64,000 nucleotides of DNA. It comes from an uncultured Lachnospiraceae bacterium. Its GTDB lineage: Bacteria > Bacillota > Clostridia > Lachnospirales > Lachnospiraceae. Location of the stretch: NCBI GenBank assembly GCA_944376125.1, contig CALWBQ010000005.1, forward strand, positions 1 to 64,000, given 5' to 3'. Positions 49,544-57,938 of this stretch are shown one piece after another. Numbering within the stretch: the stretch's first letter is position 1; each line of letters opens with the position of its first letter. The notes below the pieces were generated by a model. The model ran no database searches. It was not told the DNA's origin and worked only from the letters and a program-made list of their open reading frames with translations. A program made the position numbers and the translations under genes.

Positions 49544-50701
49544 TCAGTCATCCAGAGTATAGATATCGCCGTATTTGGCTTCGAAATCTGCAGCATTGTT
49601 GGGAACAACAATCTCGCCGGAAGTGATTTTAGCCTTCACATCCTCAACTGCTGCAATCACATCATCGCTCAGATTGTCAGTTGTCGGAGCAATATCCACA
49701 CCGCCGGTTGTGATATCATAAGTAATCACGCCGCTGTCCAGGATTCCATACAGGGCCTCCTTTGCAGCGTCATAGCTTGCATTGTCCACTCTCTTCATAG
49801 CGGAGGTCAGAATCGTCTCCGGAGCGATGGAGCTCTGGTCAGTATCAACGCCGATCGCCCAGATGCCATTTTCCTTGCAGCCTTCGATCACACCCAGACC
49901 AGATCCGCCTGCAGCATGGAAGATAACGTCGGCACCCTCAGTCACCATAGATGTGGTTGCAGACTTTCCAGTTGCCGGGTCATTAAATGCATTTACATTG
50001 TACTGCAGAACCTCAGCATCCGGGTTAGCATCCTTCACGCCTGCTACATAGCCATAGCCGAACTGGTTCATGTTCTCATTGGACATACCGATGACAAAGC
50101 CAACTTTATTGCTCTCTGTTACCAGCCCTGCCACATAGCCTACCAGATAAGCAGACTGAGCCTGCTCGAACATCAGGCAGGTAACGTTTGGCAGATCTGC
50201 ATTCGTAGCATCATCGATAATTGCGAACTGCTGATCCGGATAGGTCTCTGCTGCAGTTCTGGTAGCGTCAGCCAGCATATAGCCTACACAGATAATCAGA
50301 TCATAGTCCTCGTCCACAAAGTTTTCAATATTAGGTGTATAATCAGCATCTGTATTGGACTCAAGGTAATTTACCTGGATTCCCAGATCCTGTCCTGCTT
50401 TCTGAAGTCCTTCCCAGGATGACTGGTTAAAGGAGCCATCATTTACACCGCCGACATCTGTAACCATACCAACTTTAAACTCAGAAGGATCCTTTACCGG
50501 TGTGCCCTCCGCTTCGGCTGCAGCGGTCTCCTCTGCCTCACTCCCAGCCTCAGCTGCCTCAGTTTCTGCTGCGGTGGTCTCTGCCGCAGTGGTCTCTGCT
50601 TCAGTAGCTGCCGTTGTAGCATCTGCTGCTCCGCCGCCGCATGCGGTCAGGGCTACTGTCATGGATGCTGACAGCAATACTGCTAATACAGATTTTTTCA
50701 T
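49544..50701 (-). CDS. bmpA: BMP-family nucleoside-binding lipoprotein
   Basis: A 385-residue lipoprotein. The signal peptide ends in the lipobox LTAC (Cys21), then an Ala/Glu/Thr-rich linker to about residue 70, then the BMP domain (VGMVTDVGGVNDGSFNQSSWEGL; ICVGYMLADAT; FHAAGGSGLGVIEG). BMP-family lipoproteins of this type, such as NupN and PnrA, bind nucleosides outside the membrane and hand them to a NupOPQ-like transporter, which is encoded downstream. The SD GGGAGGAAG precedes ATG 50701. Confidence 0.93.
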   Translation of the reverse strand: MKKSVLAVLLSASMTVALTACGGGAADATTAATEAETTAAETTAAETEAAEAGSEAEETAAAEAEGTPVKDPSEFKVGMVTDVGGVNDGSFNQSSWEGLQKAGQDLGIQVNYLESNTDADYTPNIENFVDEDYDLIICVGYMLADATRTAAETYPDQQFAIIDDATNADLPNVTCLMFEQAQSAYLVGYVAGLVTESNKVGFVIGMSNENMNQFGYGYVAGVKDANPDAEVLQYNVNAFNDPATGKSATTSMVTEGADVIFHAAGGSGLGVIEGCKENGIWAIGVDTDQSSIAPETILTSAMKRVDNASYDAAKEALYGILDSGVITYDITTGGVDIAPTTDNLSDDVIAAVEDVKAKITSGEIVVPNNAADFEAKYGDIYTLDD

Positions 50702-50851: not shown

Positions 50852-50889
50852 GCCTGTGCCCCAGAGCTCTGACGGCTCTGGGGCACAGG
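50852..50889 (-). terminator. Terminator after the sulfotransferase gene
   Basis: GCCTGTGCCCCAGAGC pairs with GCTCTGGGGCACAGGC around a six-base loop. The trailing TTATGTTATAGTTT is only partly U-rich. Confidence 0.75.
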
Positions 50890-50899
50890 CAATTTTACA

Positions 50900-52771
50900 T
50901 TAAAAATCAATTTCAATATTAGAATCGTAGATCTTATTTTCCAGAAGCAGTTTTACCTTCATCTTTCCCTTCAGTCCGGCTTTGTTGACAAATACGTCAA
51001 TATTTCTCGGGTCATTCTTGAGGAAAGTGCCTACGCACATTGCGCCATAATTTCCAGGTGCTGACGTGTCAACATAGTATCTGTGCTGGCAGCCCGCTTC
51101 GTCTTCCAAAATCAGGATTACCAGCTCACCTTTTTCATAGGTAGCATTGAAAGTAATTCTGTCATTCTCTTCCGTCAGGACAGCGCCATAGTGATCCGGA
51201 ATCTCTTCGTTTGTCGGCTCGGCCGGAACTTCCGTATCCCACTCTGGGGTAACGCTCATGGCGCCCAGGGCCTGGCCTTCTCCCAGCTCTGCCACTTCTC
51301 CTGCATAGTACATTGGCAATTTTTCTGCCCGGAACACATTAGACGGAACATGAAGCTCATAGACAACTTCATCATTGACAATCTCGCAGGTGACTGCATT
51401 AAGCCTGCAGTCACTTCCGGTTCCATCTGTACTGCCCAGCCCCTCTAACGGTTCTCCATTCTTGTATGCAATTCCGCCAGAGTGAACCATGTAGCGGCCC
51501 TCATCGTAATACTCTACGTTACAGATATACGGCGAGAAGAAATCTCCTCCTCTCTCCTTGCCAAACTGCCAGATCTGACGGATTGTCATATCCTTCGTGT
51601 TGATTCTGTAGCGAACTCCTCTGGAATAGCTGTCTTTCGCCTTCATATAATGTTCTTTTATCTTGGAGCGGTAATGCCCATTGTCGAACATCATAATATC
51701 GCCGTCCGGGCAAACTACTACACCGTGCTGCTCATAGGACCACTCAAACGGCTCTCCTACGGGCTTAAAGAAGTACTTTTTCACATACTCCTCCGGCCAG
51801 CCCTGGGGATCTCCGATGATCCAGTTCAGGTCTCCGGTGACAAAGTCGATATTGATGACTGCATCCTCATGGCGCCCGGACAGGGTGATGGAATTTGTCT
51901 TCTTGTCATACCAGACTGCATTGTTGTGGAACCAGTCATGGGCGGTACCAGTGCCGGAATAAGTAGACTGGCACTGATATGGCAGCAATTTTTTGTAGTC
52001 CCACAGGCGCAGGATCTTGCCTGTTTTTCTCTCGACCAAAGCCAGAACATCCTCCACAGTAGCTGCGTCCGGCATCTGGGTCAGCATCAGAATATTTCCA
52101 TCTTCCAATTCAAAAGTATCGTGGTGATAGCCGCCGGGAATCCTATACTCTTTGTAAATCTTTCCGTGGACTCCCATCTCATAGGTGCCGCTTACGTAAT
52201 ACGGAAGCCGAATCAGGCGGTCTGTTCCCACCAGAAGATGGCCGTTGGAAAGTCTCTTCAAATCAAAGCAGACATTAATCGTCAGATACCAGCGAACATC
52301 TCCTGCATAGTCGCAGGCCAGCGCATCTGCTTTGGAGGTCTGGGTCAGAAAGATCACGTTGTCCCCCATATGTTCCTTGTTTGGTTTGCAGAATGTCGGA
52401 ACCGGAACTTCTGGCGGAAGGGGATCTGTCTGGATCTTAATTTCCGATTTTTCGCCGCCGGATAAAGACAGCTCCACTGTATTCTCATAACCGCCATACA
52501 ATCCGTATACCGGGAGAACATGCTCCGTCTCAGCCGGGAAACGGTGGACGATATTCCCCTCTGTTGTCTTCCCCTTTACGGTCAGCGTAACCTCCTGTTT
52601 AGTAGAGGTGCGGAATAAAATCATTGCTGTCAAAGGAGAGATCAGGTAGGGATTTAACACAACTAACGGTTTGTCATAGGAATAATTTCCATTCTGAAAG
52701 TCTGACAAAAATGCCTCTTCTGCCTTTTTCTGTCTCTCAATCAGGCTTTCTTTTTTTTCATATTTTACCAT
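50900..52771 (-). CDS. Aryl-sulfate sulfotransferase, leaderless
   Basis: A 623-residue protein of the PAPS-independent ASST family, which moves a sulfo group from a phenolic sulfate to another phenol through a sulfo-His intermediate. An N-terminal beta-sandwich (about 30-120) is followed by the beta-propeller. Candidate active-site residues appear in the expected order: His216-His217 (GGYHHD), His282 (WFHNN), Arg300 (SGRH) and His349 (YEQHG). Unlike the E. coli enzyme there is no signal peptide, so it should be cytoplasmic. AGGAGG precedes ATG 52771, 12 bases after the anion carrier gene. Confidence 0.88.
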   Translation of the reverse strand: MVKYEKKESLIERQKKAEEAFLSDFQNGNYSYDKPLVVLNPYLISPLTAMILFRTSTKQEVTLTVKGKTTEGNIVHRFPAETEHVLPVYGLYGGYENTVELSLSGGEKSEIKIQTDPLPPEVPVPTFCKPNKEHMGDNVIFLTQTSKADALACDYAGDVRWYLTINVCFDLKRLSNGHLLVGTDRLIRLPYYVSGTYEMGVHGKIYKEYRIPGGYHHDTFELEDGNILMLTQMPDAATVEDVLALVERKTGKILRLWDYKKLLPYQCQSTYSGTGTAHDWFHNNAVWYDKKTNSITLSGRHEDAVINIDFVTGDLNWIIGDPQGWPEEYVKKYFFKPVGEPFEWSYEQHGVVVCPDGDIMMFDNGHYRSKIKEHYMKAKDSYSRGVRYRINTKDMTIRQIWQFGKERGGDFFSPYICNVEYYDEGRYMVHSGGIAYKNGEPLEGLGSTDGTGSDCRLNAVTCEIVNDEVVYELHVPSNVFRAEKLPMYYAGEVAELGEGQALGAMSVTPEWDTEVPAEPTNEEIPDHYGAVLTEENDRITFNATYEKGELVILILEDEAGCQHRYYVDTSAPGNYGAMCVGTFLKNDPRNIDVFVNKAGLKGKMKVKLLLENKIYDSNIEIDF

Positions 52772-52783
52772 TTGATATTCCTC

Positions 52784-54193
52784 CTACTGTAAGAATCCGG
52801 TAATTGACCAGTATGGATACATTAATGCCACTAAGAAGAGCAGGCTCAATACAGTCCTTCCTGTAGAGAATTTAATTGCCTTCTTCATATCGAAGACATC
52901 GTAGCTGAAAAGGATCAGGAATAAAGCCCATTCATATGGGAAGAAGAGCTGCTCAACACCCCATACAAAGCTGAACGTTGTTCCGACCACACTGAGGTTC
53001 AGGTTCTCCGCAATGCTGATAAAAAGCGGGGAGAAGGATGCCATTCCTGCCAGAGGGGTCATCATCAGGTCTACGATAACACCTACCAGCCAGGTCACTA
53101 CAAACATGCCCAGATTGTTGATATTCTGCAGAACTGGCATCATCAGGGTGCTGACCAGATCTGCTACGCCTACACTGTTGGACATATTGCCGATTGACAT
53201 TGTCGCTGCAACAAAGAACACCATCGTGAAGTTTACATCCTTTAAATCTTCCGGTTTGCCGACATCAATGCCGGGAATAAAGCAGACGATAACAGCAAGT
53301 GTAAACAGCCAGCCGGGATCAATTCCGGAGAAGATGATGGCTGCTACCAGCCCCAGCAGAATGATCAAAAACTTGATTTCTTTCGTTGACATCTTGCCCA
53401 GAGCCTTATATTTTTCTTCAAAATATTCTTTTCCATCAATCTTTGCATCCTGTTTGAACATTATGCGGATCATCACCAGCAGAGCGATGAGCCAAAGAAG
53501 CATAACTGGGAAGTTGCTGATAAAATACTGCATCCAGCTGACATCTTTCCCGATCTCCTGCAGGTAGGAATTGACCAGCTGCAGATTTTCACTGGCCGAA
53601 AGGTACATCCAGGAAGGTGCGATGGCGGCTACAAAGCCTGCAAACATGATGCCTGCCGCGGTATTGCTGTTGTTAGGAATTTTAAGTGCTGTGTAAATAC
53701 CGTAGCAAAGTGCACAGTAAAGAGCAACACGTCCAGTCATGTTGGGGACCAGAAGGCCGATGACAATGCCGGAAAGAACCAGGCCAGTCACAATGCCTTT
53801 ATAGGAACCGCCAGATTTTACGATAAAGAAGTATGCGATCCGGTTCATTAAACCGCTTTTCTCAAAGATAACAGAGAGCGTCAGGCCGCCCAGAGACAGC
53901 CACACAACGGAACCTGTCCAGGGGCCCATAACGACGGTCGCTGGTGCCACGCCCCACAGGATCGCTCCGACTGTCAGCAAAAGGCCGGAAATGTAAACCG
54001 GGAGCAGGTTCATCGCCCACGTCAAAATCGCCCACGCAGTGACGACGAAAAATTTTCTCATTTCCAGGGTAACTGCCTCAGTCTGAGGAATCACAAAATA
54101 TAAGATCACTGGAATGCCTATGGCAATGAGCCATTTGATTGCCTGAACCGCTGATGGATTTAGCTTCGCGGCTGCCTTATTCTGTTCGTTCAT
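52784..54193 (-). CDS. DASS/SLC13-family anion:cation symporter
   Basis: A 469-residue carrier with about 11-12 membrane spans. The SLC13 pattern is seen in AWAILTWAMNLLPVYISGLLL, a half-repeat beginning GSVVWLSLGGLTLSVIFEKSG, and the second repeat with VNFTMVFFVAATMSIGNM and DLMMTPLAGMASFSP. Family members import dicarboxylates, sulfate or other organic anions with Na+. ATG 54193 follows AAAGGGGG; the ATG at 54217 is less likely. It lies between the TIM-barrel protein and the sulfotransferase and would deliver their substrate. Confidence 0.88.
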   Translation of the reverse strand: MNEQNKAAAKLNPSAVQAIKWLIAIGIPVILYFVIPQTEAVTLEMRKFFVVTAWAILTWAMNLLPVYISGLLLTVGAILWGVAPATVVMGPWTGSVVWLSLGGLTLSVIFEKSGLMNRIAYFFIVKSGGSYKGIVTGLVLSGIVIGLLVPNMTGRVALYCALCYGIYTALKIPNNSNTAAGIMFAGFVAAIAPSWMYLSASENLQLVNSYLQEIGKDVSWMQYFISNFPVMLLWLIALLVMIRIMFKQDAKIDGKEYFEEKYKALGKMSTKEIKFLIILLGLVAAIIFSGIDPGWLFTLAVIVCFIPGIDVGKPEDLKDVNFTMVFFVAATMSIGNMSNSVGVADLVSTLMMPVLQNINNLGMFVVTWLVGVIVDLMMTPLAGMASFSPLFISIAENLNLSVVGTTFSFVWGVEQLFFPYEWALFLILFSYDVFDMKKAIKFSTGRTVLSLLFLVALMYPYWSITGFLQ

Positions 54194-54230
54194 TCTTTTT
54201 CCCCCTTTGCATGTCATTCCAACTGCTGTA

Positions 54231-55061
54231 TTACTTCTTGATTGCCTTAAATGCCTCTGTCTGAGCCGTCATTCCTCTCTCGGAAGCAAGGCGCTCAATA
54301 GAAGATGCTCCGAAGAATCCATCGATTTCAGGTACATTCTTGATAACGTAAGCTGCATCTTCCGGATCTGCAATGGGGCCGCCGTGGCAGATTACCATAA
54401 TGTCTGGCCGAACTTCCCGCCCAGCTTTGATGATACCGCGAATCTTCTCGCAGCAATCGTCAAGGGTAATGGCTGTCTCCGCACCGATCGATCCTTTTGT
54501 TGTCAGGCCCATATGGGCAACCAGGATGTCTGCTCCAGCTTCTGCCATGGCCTTTGCCTGGGAGGGATCAAATACATACGGGCAGGTCAGCATATCCAGC
54601 TTATGTGCCTCACGGATCATATCAACCTCAAGGCCATATCCCATTCCAGTCTCCTCCAGATTAGCGCGGAAGGTTCCGTCGATCAAGCCGACAGTCGGGA
54701 AGTTCTGAACACCGTTAAATCCCTGCTCTTTTAATTTTTTCAGGAACAGATCCATGACACGGAAGGGGTCTGTCCCGCAGACACCAGCCAGAACAGGCGT
54801 ATTCTTTACAATTGGAAGAACCTCTGCTCCCATCTCCTGTACGATTTTGTTGGCATCTCCATATGCCAGAAGTCCTGAAAGAGAGCCGCGGCCTGCCATT
54901 CTGAAACGCCCGGAATTATAAATAATCAGCATGTCAGCTCCGCCTTTTTCGCTGCACTTAGCTGTGATTCCGGTTCCGGCCCCAACGCCTACCAAAATTC
55001 TTCCACTTTTCACTTCATTGCGGAACTTTTCCATAATTTCGCTTCTTGTCATTCTGTTCAT
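54231..55061 (-). CDS. TIM-barrel protein of the PEP hydrolase-like family (PF09370)
   Basis: A 276-residue TIM-barrel protein. [50 protein letters not shown] and VICHGGP (His226) are the conserved blocks; Gly-rich loops suggest a phosphate or carboxylate ligand. The family name (phosphoenolpyruvate hydrolase-like, formerly TIM-barrel signal transduction) does not establish the reaction. It follows the Tm-1-like gene by 22 bases. The two domains are fused in tomato Tm-1 and related proteins, so they probably form one enzyme complex here. Confidence 0.88.
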
Positions 55062-55083: not shown

Positions 55084-56304
55084 TTAATGGTTCTCCATTA
55101 ACTGAATCAATGTTTTTGCTGCTTTTTCTGCAAATTCCGGGTCATTGATGGCCATATCACACTCTTCTATTTTGACCACGTCCTGATTGACATTTTCTTT
55201 TAAGGTGCGGAACAAAGCCGCATCCTCCTCCGGTCCATAGAAGGGCTGGCCCTCCACATCGATAGCCGATACACCCTTTAAAGGGAGCATAAGGACTGTC
55301 TTGCCAGAAGCCATATTCAATTTTTCTGCCAGCTTGTGAGCGATCTCAACATTTTCCTCCGCTGTTGTTCTCATCAAAGTAACCGTGGGATTGTGCTGAT
55401 AAAACTTTCTGCCTTTAAATTTCTGCGGAACCGTTTCCGGCGGGCCGAAATTCACCATATCCATAGCTCCCACTGAAACAACCTGGGGAATTCCGCACAG
55501 GGAAGCCGCTTCATTCCGCTTTTCCCCAGCTGCCAGCACGCCGCCTACAACCTGATCACACCACTCCGTGGTAGTCAGATCCAGAATTCCTTTAAAGTAT
55601 CCGGACTTTGCCATAGCCTCCATTGTCTTTCCGCCTGTCCCTGTTGCGTGGAACACCATCACCTCGTAGCCATGATTCTCCAGATATTCCTTTGCATGTT
55701 CAACGCAGGGCGTCGTCACGCCAAACATGGTGGCTGCTACCAGAGGCTTCTCATCTTCTTCCTCCTGGGGCAGCTTGTCCTTCAAGTCAACCATTCCTGC
55801 TGCAGCCAGCACTGCATTCCGGAAGATCGTTTTCGAGATTGCGTTGAGACCCGCCACATCCACAATGGACGGTATCATTACAATGTCACTGGTTCCTACG
55901 TACTGCTCCACATTTCCTGATGCCATCGTAGACACCATTACCTTAGGAACACCTATGGGAAGAGCTCTCATGGCTGCCGTCGCAAGAGAAGTCCCTCCGG
56001 ATCCCCCGAAGGATAAAATACCGTCAAACTTTCCTTCCTGATACAGCCGCGGAATCAAAATCTCCATTCCGGCAGCGATCGCCTTTGTCGCCTGTGCACG
56101 ATCATGCTTCTGAATCAGATCATCCAAATCATATCCAGCCGATTCCACGATCTCTCTGTTCGAAACATCCGGCTCAAACAGAGGTTCAAATACGCCTGTG
56201 TGAATAGTAAAAGGCCGGATTCCCAATTTTTCGATCAATTCCTTTACATAGAGAAATTCCTGGCCTTTTGTATCAAACGTTCCTGCCAATGCAATCGTCT
56301 TCAT
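55084..56304 (-). CDS. Tm-1-like ATP-binding protein (UPF0261)
   Basis: A 406-residue cytoplasmic protein with the UPF0261 pattern: ALAGTFDTKGQEF at the N terminus, SFGGSGGTSLA, SDIVMIPSIVDVAGLN, VFHATGTGGKTMEAM, LDLTTTEWCDQVVGG and the C-terminal PLKGVSAIDVEGQPF. The tomato Tm-1 homolog binds ATP in this domain, but the native bacterial reaction is unknown to me. It is the first gene of the operon, with GGGGGAGG before ATG 56304, downstream of repeated motifs that may bind the AraC-type regulator. Confidence 0.9.
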   Translation of the reverse strand: MKTIALAGTFDTKGQEFLYVKELIEKLGIRPFTIHTGVFEPLFEPDVSNREIVESAGYDLDDLIQKHDRAQATKAIAAGMEILIPRLYQEGKFDGILSFGGSGGTSLATAAMRALPIGVPKVMVSTMASGNVEQYVGTSDIVMIPSIVDVAGLNAISKTIFRNAVLAAAGMVDLKDKLPQEEEDEKPLVAATMFGVTTPCVEHAKEYLENHGYEVMVFHATGTGGKTMEAMAKSGYFKGILDLTTTEWCDQVVGGVLAAGEKRNEAASLCGIPQVVSVGAMDMVNFGPPETVPQKFKGRKFYQHNPTVTLMRTTAEENVEIAHKLAEKLNMASGKTVLMLPLKGVSAIDVEGQPFYGPEEDAALFRTLKENVNQDVVKIEECDMAINDPEFAEKAAKTLIQLMENH

Positions 56305-56338
56305 GTATCCTCCCCCTTTTCCGTAAATTCTTAACCTA

Positions 56339-56474
56339 TGTTTATATTTTAGTCCATCTCTTCGCCTTTATAAATGTGGTATCATTTCCTAATCTTGTGT
56401 TTATATTAATAATTTTGAATCCTTTCCCAGTGACTTTTTGTGTTTATATTTTATTTATTATTTGAGTCCATCTC
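56339..56474 (-). promoter_or_regulatory. Repeated motifs, candidate AraC-regulator operator
   Basis: On the minus strand AATATAAACA occurs three times (56348-56339, 56407-56398, 56450-56441); two copies extend to AATATAAACACAA. GAGATGGACT occurs twice (56360-56351 and 56474-56465), each just upstream of an AATATAAACA copy. Paired direct repeats in front of a regulated operon are the usual layout for AraC-family sites. No strong -35/-10 pair is visible, consistent with an activated promoter. Confidence 0.5.
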
Positions 56475-56578: not shown

Positions 56579-56611
56579 TAAAAAAACAGCAGCAACATTG
56601 CGTCACTGCCG
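56579..56611 (-). terminator. Terminator after the TIM-barrel/AraC regulator gene
   Basis: CAG...GCAA pairs with TTGC...CTG with a small internal loop, followed by TTTTTTATG on the minus strand, six bases after the stop. Confidence 0.55.
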
Positions 56612-56616
56612 ATTTT

Positions 56617-57807
56617 CTACTGTTTCTGTTCAATATATTCTGTAGGGGATATCCCCGTATATTTCTTAAACATTTTGGAAAACTGCGCGTAATCCTCGTA
56701 TCCCACCATATCTGCCGCCTCTTTGCAGGTGATATGTCTTTCCCGAAACAGTTTCTTTGCCTTATTGATCCGAAATTTAATCAGGTATTCCGTGAAACTG
56801 CATCCTACCTCTTTTTTGAACTTCACACTGAGATAAGAGCTGGAAACATGGGTGTAAGTTGCCAGATCCTGCATCTGAATTTTCTGCATATAATGCTCTT
56901 CTATATATTTCTTTACAAAATCCACATAATCATCTGGATGCAGATTTCCATTGAGCAGCTTCGTCATAGGATCATTGGCATCAAAGCTGCCGCAGCTTTT
57001 AAAGGCCTTTGTGGTATTTAAAATAGCCCGCTCTACCGGAATCCGCTCAAAAGTCGACCCTCCGATATATCCCTGGCATTTGGTATTCTGGTACATGTAC
57101 TGCATATCAATAGGTGTGTTTGCCGGTCCCGCGTAGATCATTTTCATCACATCGCCCCGCACCTCATCGCAGGCATTAAAAATTTCTTCAGAAATCTTCT
57201 TTGCATCATTGATGGATATGTATTTTTTGGCGCCCAGAAAGCCGCCTTTCGTCAGGCCAAAATGAGCACAAATCACATCGGCTCCAGCCTGCGCCATTGC
57301 CCTGCTCTGATCCGCATCCGTCACAAAGGCGATTGTAAAAAGATCCATAAAGTGGGCCAATTTGATAGCCTCCACTTCTTTTTCAAAACTGTTGCCTTCC
57401 ATCTCGATAGCGGTTTTAAAATTACCGTCGATCAGGGACAGAGTCGGATAATTTACGATGCCTGAAAAGCCATTCTCCTTAATCTGCTGCAGGTAATCAT
57501 ATAAATTAATCATCGGATCACTGGCAAAAAGCCCAAAAAGCACCGGCTTGTCTTTTATAATCGTCAGCAGCTCATTTTGTCCCATATTCATAACAATGGA
57601 ATTACTGTTTCCATAGCAGAGATAGCTGGAAAATGAACTCCGCCCCATAATCCGGAACTTACCAGCGCTGAGCGCCAAGAGAATATCCGCTCCCCCTTCT
57701 GCCGCATACTTGGCTGTCATCCCGGATCCAGCCACTACCCCCAAAATGTGACCATTGATGTGAATCTGAGCATTAAGATTTTTTAAGATTTCTTCTCTGG
57801 CGATCAT
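56617..57807 (-). CDS. TIM-barrel (PEP hydrolase-like)/AraC fusion transcription regulator
   Basis: A 396-residue two-domain protein. Residues 1 to about 275 are a PF09370-type TIM barrel (VVAGSGMTAKYAAEGGADILL, SAGKFRIMGRSSFSSYLCYGNSNSIV, CAHFGLTKGG), clearly paralogous to the stand-alone protein at 54231-55061. Residues about 295-396 are an AraC/XylS DNA-binding domain with two helix-turn-helix units (MQDLATYTHVSSSYLSVKF; AADMVGYEDYAQFSKMFKKYTGISPTEY). The enzyme's CHGGP motif reads IYAGP here (Tyr225), so the domain may bind without catalysis. AGGAGG precedes the ATG. It probably senses the pathway's substrate and activates the operon. Confidence 0.9.
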   Translation of the reverse strand: MIAREEILKNLNAQIHINGHILGVVAGSGMTAKYAAEGGADILLALSAGKFRIMGRSSFSSYLCYGNSNSIVMNMGQNELLTIIKDKPVLFGLFASDPMINLYDYLQQIKENGFSGIVNYPTLSLIDGNFKTAIEMEGNSFEKEVEAIKLAHFMDLFTIAFVTDADQSRAMAQAGADVICAHFGLTKGGFLGAKKYISINDAKKISEEIFNACDEVRGDVMKMIYAGPANTPIDMQYMYQNTKCQGYIGGSTFERIPVERAILNTTKAFKSCGSFDANDPMTKLLNGNLHPDDYVDFVKKYIEEHYMQKIQMQDLATYTHVSSSYLSVKFKKEVGCSFTEYLIKFRINKAKKLFRERHITCKEAADMVGYEDYAQFSKMFKKYTGISPTEYIEQKQ

Positions 57808-57908: not shown

Positions 57909-57938
57909 ATTATATTACACGATTGTATTTTTTGACAA
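57909..57938 (-). promoter_or_regulatory. Promoter of the regulator gene
   Basis: TTGTCA, 18-base spacer and TATAAT on the minus strand, about 100 bases before the ATG. Confidence 0.7.

Follow-up and report, generated by a model that had tools for sequence, protein, structure and literature searches.

In AraC-type regulators of the GbdR/FtrA type, a retired class I glutamine-amidotransferase-like domain precedes the AraC domain and serves as a non-catalytic sensor. AraC at araBAD (I1-I2) binds direct half-sites spaced by 21 bp, the proximal one of which overlaps the -35 region. In PMC5028733, the PF09370 family (PEP_hydrolase) is called TIM-barrel signal transduction (TBST), a name by which a signalling role has already been proposed for it; four groups of these proteins are distinguished by their place in the tree and their domain structure, and UPF0261 with its TIM-barrel partner is placed in bacteria, archaea, fungi and plants (in the last as Tm-1). 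AraC, sigma factors, HTH domains and a catalytic residue go unmentioned in the text of that paper. The label "PEP hydrolase" is based on similarity of fold, and the fold relatives of the PF09370 barrel include PEP mutase and methylisocitrate lyase. In open-licence papers, we came across no enzymatic activity of a PF09370 protein, hydrolysis of phosphoenolpyruvate or phosphonopyruvate included, no established reaction for UPF0261 and its TIM-barrel partner, and no study of an AraC fusion of PF09370.

The window, which is the whole stretch of 64,000 nucleotides analysed here (contig CALWBQ010000005.1 of an uncultured Lachnospiraceae bacterium), encodes a protein in which a PF09370 TIM barrel is followed by an AraC DNA-binding domain (Table 1). 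This regulator is likely to be a local AraC-type activator, the sensor of which is a catalytically retired duplicate of the TIM-barrel enzyme that the operon encodes. As the earlier note had claimed, its barrel aligns with the stand-alone TIM-barrel protein encoded nearby, and an AraC domain follows (HTH_18, residues 315-393, E 2.6e-20). BLASTP aligns the two proteins over 271 residues with 108 identities (40%) and two gap positions (E 3e-72). The whole-domain PF09370 match reaches 324 bits in the regulator and 424 bits in the stand-alone barrel (curated cut-off 33.8), and a genome search retrieved exactly these two PF09370 proteins from the window's genome. The C-terminal domain of the regulator has two helix-turn-helix motifs, with both PF12833 and PF00165 above cut-off, and AlphaFold predicts seven helices at residues 291-395 (pLDDT of the model 85.8). 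The GbdR and FtrA models match the AraC part only (residues 294-394); the class I glutamine-amidotransferase (DJ-1/PfpI) fold is absent from the sensor, which is a PF09370 TIM barrel with 2P10 as its best structural match.

The genes for UPF0261, the stand-alone barrel, a transporter and an ASST-like protein all lie downstream of the regulator on the same strand. The stand-alone barrel (AlphaFold pLDDT 88.6), which we presume to be an enzyme, matches the solved structure 2P10, itself a stand-alone barrel with the His discussed below, at E 2.9e-111 (phmmer). UPF0261 is related to the tomato Tm-1 structures 3WRW/3WRY, and the DASS-type transporter matches TIGR00785 below its cut-off. After the ASST-like gene and a strong hairpin (50852-50890) comes a gene for a Bmp/PnrA-type substrate-binding lipoprotein (49544-50701, minus strand), which is probably a separate unit because of that hairpin.

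Table 1. Features of the regulator locus in the window (position 1 is the first letter of the window)
Feature	Position	Strand	Basis or remark
Regulator gene, 396 aa: PF09370 TIM barrel and AraC DNA-binding domain	56617..57807	-	Pfam, BLASTP, AlphaFold
Sensor barrel, regulator residues 6-271	56995..57792	-	PF09370 E 8.2e-97; genome search places the barrel identically
AraC helix-turn-helix region, about residues 300-393	56629..56910	-	HTH_18/HTH_AraC; AraC-type PDB matches
Tyr225 codon, aligned with enzyme His226	57133..57135	-	BLASTP, family alignments, AlphaFold strand end
Leu46 codon, aligned with the conserved Tyr48 of the enzyme	57670..57672	-	Alignment tallies
Promoter-like site of the regulator, TTGTCA-18-TATAAT, 11/12	57909..57938	-	Consensus match only
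Terminator-like hairpin 3' of the regulator, 11-bp stem, T run	56587..56611	-	
Putative operator copy 1, AATATAAACACAA	56438..56450	-	Motif search
Putative operator copy 2, AATATAAACACAA	56395..56407	-	Motif search
Putative operator copy 3, AATATAAACATAG	56336..56348	-	Between -10 box and UPF0261 start
Candidate -10 box TATAAA of the UPF0261-barrel operon	56367..56372	-	18-nt spacing as in relatives
UPF0261 (Tm-1-like ATP-binding) partner gene	55084..56304	-	PF06792 and PF23189
Stand-alone PF09370 barrel, presumed enzyme, 276 aa	54231..55061	-	PF09370 full length, E 2.4e-127
His226 codon, stand-alone barrel	54384..54386	-	Invariant in 34 diverse stand-alones; 133/136 overall
DASS-type anion transporter, 13 bp past the barrel gene	52784..54217	-	PF00939
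Arylsulfotransferase-like (ASST) protein, 12 bp past the transporter	50900..52771	-	PF05935 E 4.2e-100

Relatives were gathered by a scan of a genome collection, which gave 67 loci, and further ones were added by whole-genome searches (class, phylum) and from plasmid records. The whole-genome samples cover the window's own class and phylum, and other phyla entered through the plasmid records and the collection scan. The stand-alone sample spans Bacillota, Actinomycetota, Pseudomonadota and Halobacteria, including Streptomyces, Halobaculum, Azospirillum, Vibrio and Ewingella. The printed tally of 138 stand-alones became 136 because two apparent Tyr-bearing members, L055 and L017, were rejected as frameshifted AraC fusions. 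The regulatory fusions number 78, comprising 63 with an AraC domain and 15 of the sigma-54 type.

The pairing of the enzyme's CHGGP (His226) with IYAGP (Tyr225) in the regulator, proposed in the earlier note, is correct by alignment, and the AlphaFold models of both barrels place the two residues at equivalent strand ends: His226 closes strand 222-226 in the enzyme and Tyr225 closes strand 221-225 in the regulator, on the catalytic face of the barrel. His226 is invariant in an alignment of 34 stand-alones with identities down to 31%, and was retained in 133 of the 136 stand-alones and in none of the 78 fusions (0/63 AraC, 0/15 sigma-54-type); an early set had given His in 52/53 stand-alones and Tyr in 51/54 AraC fusions. 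In the full set, Tyr takes its place in 60/63 AraC fusions and 8/15 sigma-54 fusions, which indicates that Tyr225 is constrained and that the pocket looks rebuilt rather than decayed. A second site, directly after another barrel strand, splits stand-alones from regulators almost as cleanly: position 48 is Tyr in 133 of the 138 tallied stand-alones (a tally that includes the two frameshifted fusions) and Leu in 61/63 AraC and 13/15 sigma-54 fusions. After removal of five gap columns from a listing of 30, there are 25 residue columns conserved in at least 96% of 26 diverse stand-alone representatives, and of these none but His226 is at 0% in the 43 regulator representatives, with 20 of the 25 kept in at least 86% of them. 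Lys35, found in 100% of the 34-member stand-alone set and in 72% of the regulator representatives, counts against the sensor reading. By its invariance and position, His226 is a putative catalytic His.

The earlier note had read the regulator as a sensor made by inactivation, which was to fail if the His varied among stand-alone enzymes or persisted in fusions elsewhere. The His partition given above shows neither of these, the control of the neighbouring genes that the note thought probable is supported, and the absence of the His from all AraC fusions, which that note had put forward as a check, was also found. These fusions form one clade, however, so they are not independent cases, and the conserved Tyr together with the change of Tyr48 to Leu goes beyond mere disabling.

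The three exceptions among the stand-alone barrels carry Cys (L048; L093/L110) or Phe (L035) in place of the His. They were rejected as active His-less enzymes, because UPF0261 is truncated or absent in all their loci and the C-terminus is degenerate in L093/L110 and L035. In L046, UPF0261 is truncated and the barrel His is still present. On the Eubacterium contig of L035 (5995-9450), two AraC fusions with Ser and Cys at the His site flank the degenerate barrel, with no UPF0261 nearby, and these sensors seem to have outlived their enzyme. In six other loci (L103, L106, L107, L109, L112 and L113), paired stand-alone barrels flank UPF0261, one an AHGGP/SHGGP copy and the other a THGGP copy, in which His183 is replaced by Ile or Met and His226 is kept; such pairs are possibly heteromeric enzymes.

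Among 62 regulator loci with 4 kb on each side, a stand-alone barrel was present in all 62 and UPF0261 in 60, and regulator, barrel and UPF0261 all lie on one strand in 57. This synteny, together with the operator and promoter evidence below, supports the earlier proposal that the regulator controls the neighbouring enzyme operon. In rhizobia, the surroundings of the UPF0261-barrel pair repeatedly include genes for a cupin, for a Gfo/Idh/MocA oxidoreductase and for ABC transporters of the sugar type (L182:5281-9773, L183:5134-9617, L184 and L185), which hints that the substrate in these bacteria resembles a sugar or inositol. Bradyrhizobium loci have genes for an FAD-dependent oxidoreductase and pyruvate kinase after that for the barrel (L119:8897-12152, L124:8847-12334). 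Truncated PF09370 proteins of 196-239 aa, consisting of mid-barrel only, occur near UPF0261 in rhizobial and Azospirillum loci, their position kept across species (L182:3362-3952, minus; L183:3216-3806, minus; L121:2164-2883, plus).

A half-site, ACATAAACACATTTAC, is recognisable across the AraC-fusion loci. The 21-bp spacing of direct repeats occurred 68 times versus 2.7 in shuffles (18 near loci, window included), a comparison in which the shuffles control composition only, since the copies were counted in the very loci that had supplied the operator consensus. The fixed distance to the promoter is more independent evidence than the repeat counts: a -10-like hexamer lies exactly 18 nt past the half-site in 39 of 49 scorable loci, with other offsets at no more than four each. 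In the window, the 16-bp half-site at 56391-56406, belonging to operator copy 2, likewise stands exactly 18 nt ahead of the -10 box. The half-sites of the window are less regularly placed, 43 and 59 bp apart versus 21 in relatives, which counts against the reading. In the 3.29 Mb genome, WATATAAACAYAR has three copies, all at the window locus (reversed-pattern control: two). That the operator in Paenibacillus and Clostridium is an unrelated site was considered and rejected, because it can be aligned with the common half-site and lies at an identical distance from the -10 box. In L005, the DASS and ASST genes form a separate unit with an operator copy of its own at the same 18-nt spacing, which ties them to the same regulon. 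The predicted operator is an AraC-type direct repeat adjoining the promoter, and its geometry suggests activation, with repression or dual action as alternatives.

Promoter type follows the output domain. Most operons next to Bacillota-type sigma-54 fusions have a -24/-12 promoter: TGGCAY-N5-TTGC was found 50-70 bp before UPF0261 in 5/8 such loci, with one further match in the 476 kb of both-strand sequence of the sigma-54-fusion loci, and of the four matches in the 1.3 Mb of the AraC loci, none lies upstream of UPF0261. Glu, Gly or Ala occupies the His226 site, and Asn or Asp position 183, in the alphaproteobacterial PF09370-AAA+-Fis fusions (L119, L121 and L182-L186), some of which are carried by pMLa and by the symbiotic plasmid pNGR234a. 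No Walker A motif, GAFTGA motif or TGGCAY-N5-TTGC promoter was found for them, and the lack of the two motifs indicates that, despite their annotation, they are probably not sigma-54 activators.

In a tree from which columns 48 and 226 were excluded, the fusions of both types all fall into one clade (support 100/98), in which the AraC fusions are again a clade (100/97) and the sigma-54 fusions do not resolve into a single one; the regulator of the window groups with the fusions, apart from the stand-alones. With a single clade, the His loss counts as one ancient event, placed where the sensor lineage begins, and repeated independent loss in each AraC fusion was rejected on this ground. The output domain was exchanged at least once after the loss. 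In a broader account, to which we give about even chances, one ancient Tm-1-type TIM-barrel duplicate became a sensor by replacing its sole indispensable residue and was later re-plugged between unrelated outputs (AraC with sigma-70-type promoters, AAA+ with sigma-54 promoters), the target promoter changing too, with the family's substrate as ligand.

In the mechanism that we propose, the regulator barrel would bind the pathway substrate, product or a close analogue without turnover, given that His226 and Tyr48 are gone from the catalytic face and the other near-invariant residues are mostly kept. Its ligand may be the substrate of the stand-alone enzyme or related to it, as the earlier note had proposed. 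Binding would lead the AraC domains to occupy the direct-repeat half-sites, the promoter-proximal one of which overlaps the -35 region of the UPF0261-barrel-transporter-ASST operon, and RNA polymerase would then be recruited.

Other explanations share part of this evidence. The regulator barrel might dock onto the stand-alone barrel or UPF0261 and read the state or amount of an enzyme complex rather than a free small molecule. The constant neighbourhood of the three genes would suit such docking, as would the six chains deposited in the solved relative 2P10 and the published co-evolution of UPF0261 and TIM-barrel proteins (PMC5028733), which suggests a complex; the changes specific to the sensor clade, however, sit at strand ends on the catalytic face and point to the pocket, and we regard docking as unlikely. 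That the barrel is a trigger enzyme, retaining some catalysis and perhaps coupling a different, Tyr225-based reaction to DNA binding, would explain why Tyr225 is conserved rather than random and why most other invariant residues are kept. We consider this quite improbable, because His226 and Tyr48 are both replaced throughout the clade, and because the Glu, Gly or Ala and the Asn or Asp of the alphaproteobacterial fusions are hard to square with one chemistry.

The same sensor could also serve a repressor, the ligand relieving repression at the operator, and the third operator copy, which in the window lies past the -10 box and ahead of the start codon, would fit this. Yet the overlap of the proximal half-site with the -35 region, at a fixed 18 nt to the -10 box across relatives, is the geometry of class II AraC activation. 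The sister output domain, moreover, is that of a sigma-54 activator: its GAFTGA and Walker motifs are intact, and most of these loci have a -24/-12 promoter. We give repression little probability. Drift, with a Tyr of no functional meaning and a split that merely separates two diverged paralogs, gains some ground from the paralogs being just 40% identical and from the clade split being a single event, but against it stand the loss of His226, alone among the 25 invariant columns, from every regulator and the conservation of its replacement in 60/63 AraC fusions, and it has a very low probability. Activation by a ligand-binding, probably non-catalytic barrel stays our preferred reading.

A sensor derived from an enzyme and fused to an AraC domain is of a kind already known; a PF09370 sensor with a one-residue signature and a matching promoter exchange was not found described in open-licence papers. 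It provides a natural case of an enzyme turned sensor, in which one residue separates both roles across about 216 sequences, and the combination of an enzyme-made sensor with an operator defined to the base offers a direct route to the family's substrate via the regulator's ligands. Among known structures, 2P10 (Mll9387) shares fold and family with the regulator barrel, and is a stand-alone protein with the His. Tomato Tm-1 has the same two enzyme-side domains, UPF0261 and TIM barrel, that are encoded here by two adjacent genes, whereas in the plant protein these partners are fused and there is no DNA-binding domain. The PF09370 sigma-54 activators (annotated as sigma-54-dependent Fis family) belong to the same sensor clade, have the same UPF0261-barrel neighbours and have lost the His, and their output is AAA+ with a Fis-type HTH, in contrast to the AraC domain of the regulator. 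The AraC protein of araBAD, with its 21-bp half-sites and the proximal one overlapping the -35 region, resembles the relatives of the window locus, which show 21-bp repeats and a fixed -10 spacing; it differs in having a cupin-like arabinose pocket in place of a TIM-barrel sensor, and from the window itself in repeat spacing. With the GbdR/FtrA type, the regulator has in common a non-catalytic enzyme-like sensor ahead of an AraC domain, but here a TIM barrel does the sensing, and its homologue is an enzyme encoded by the same operon that the regulator would control.
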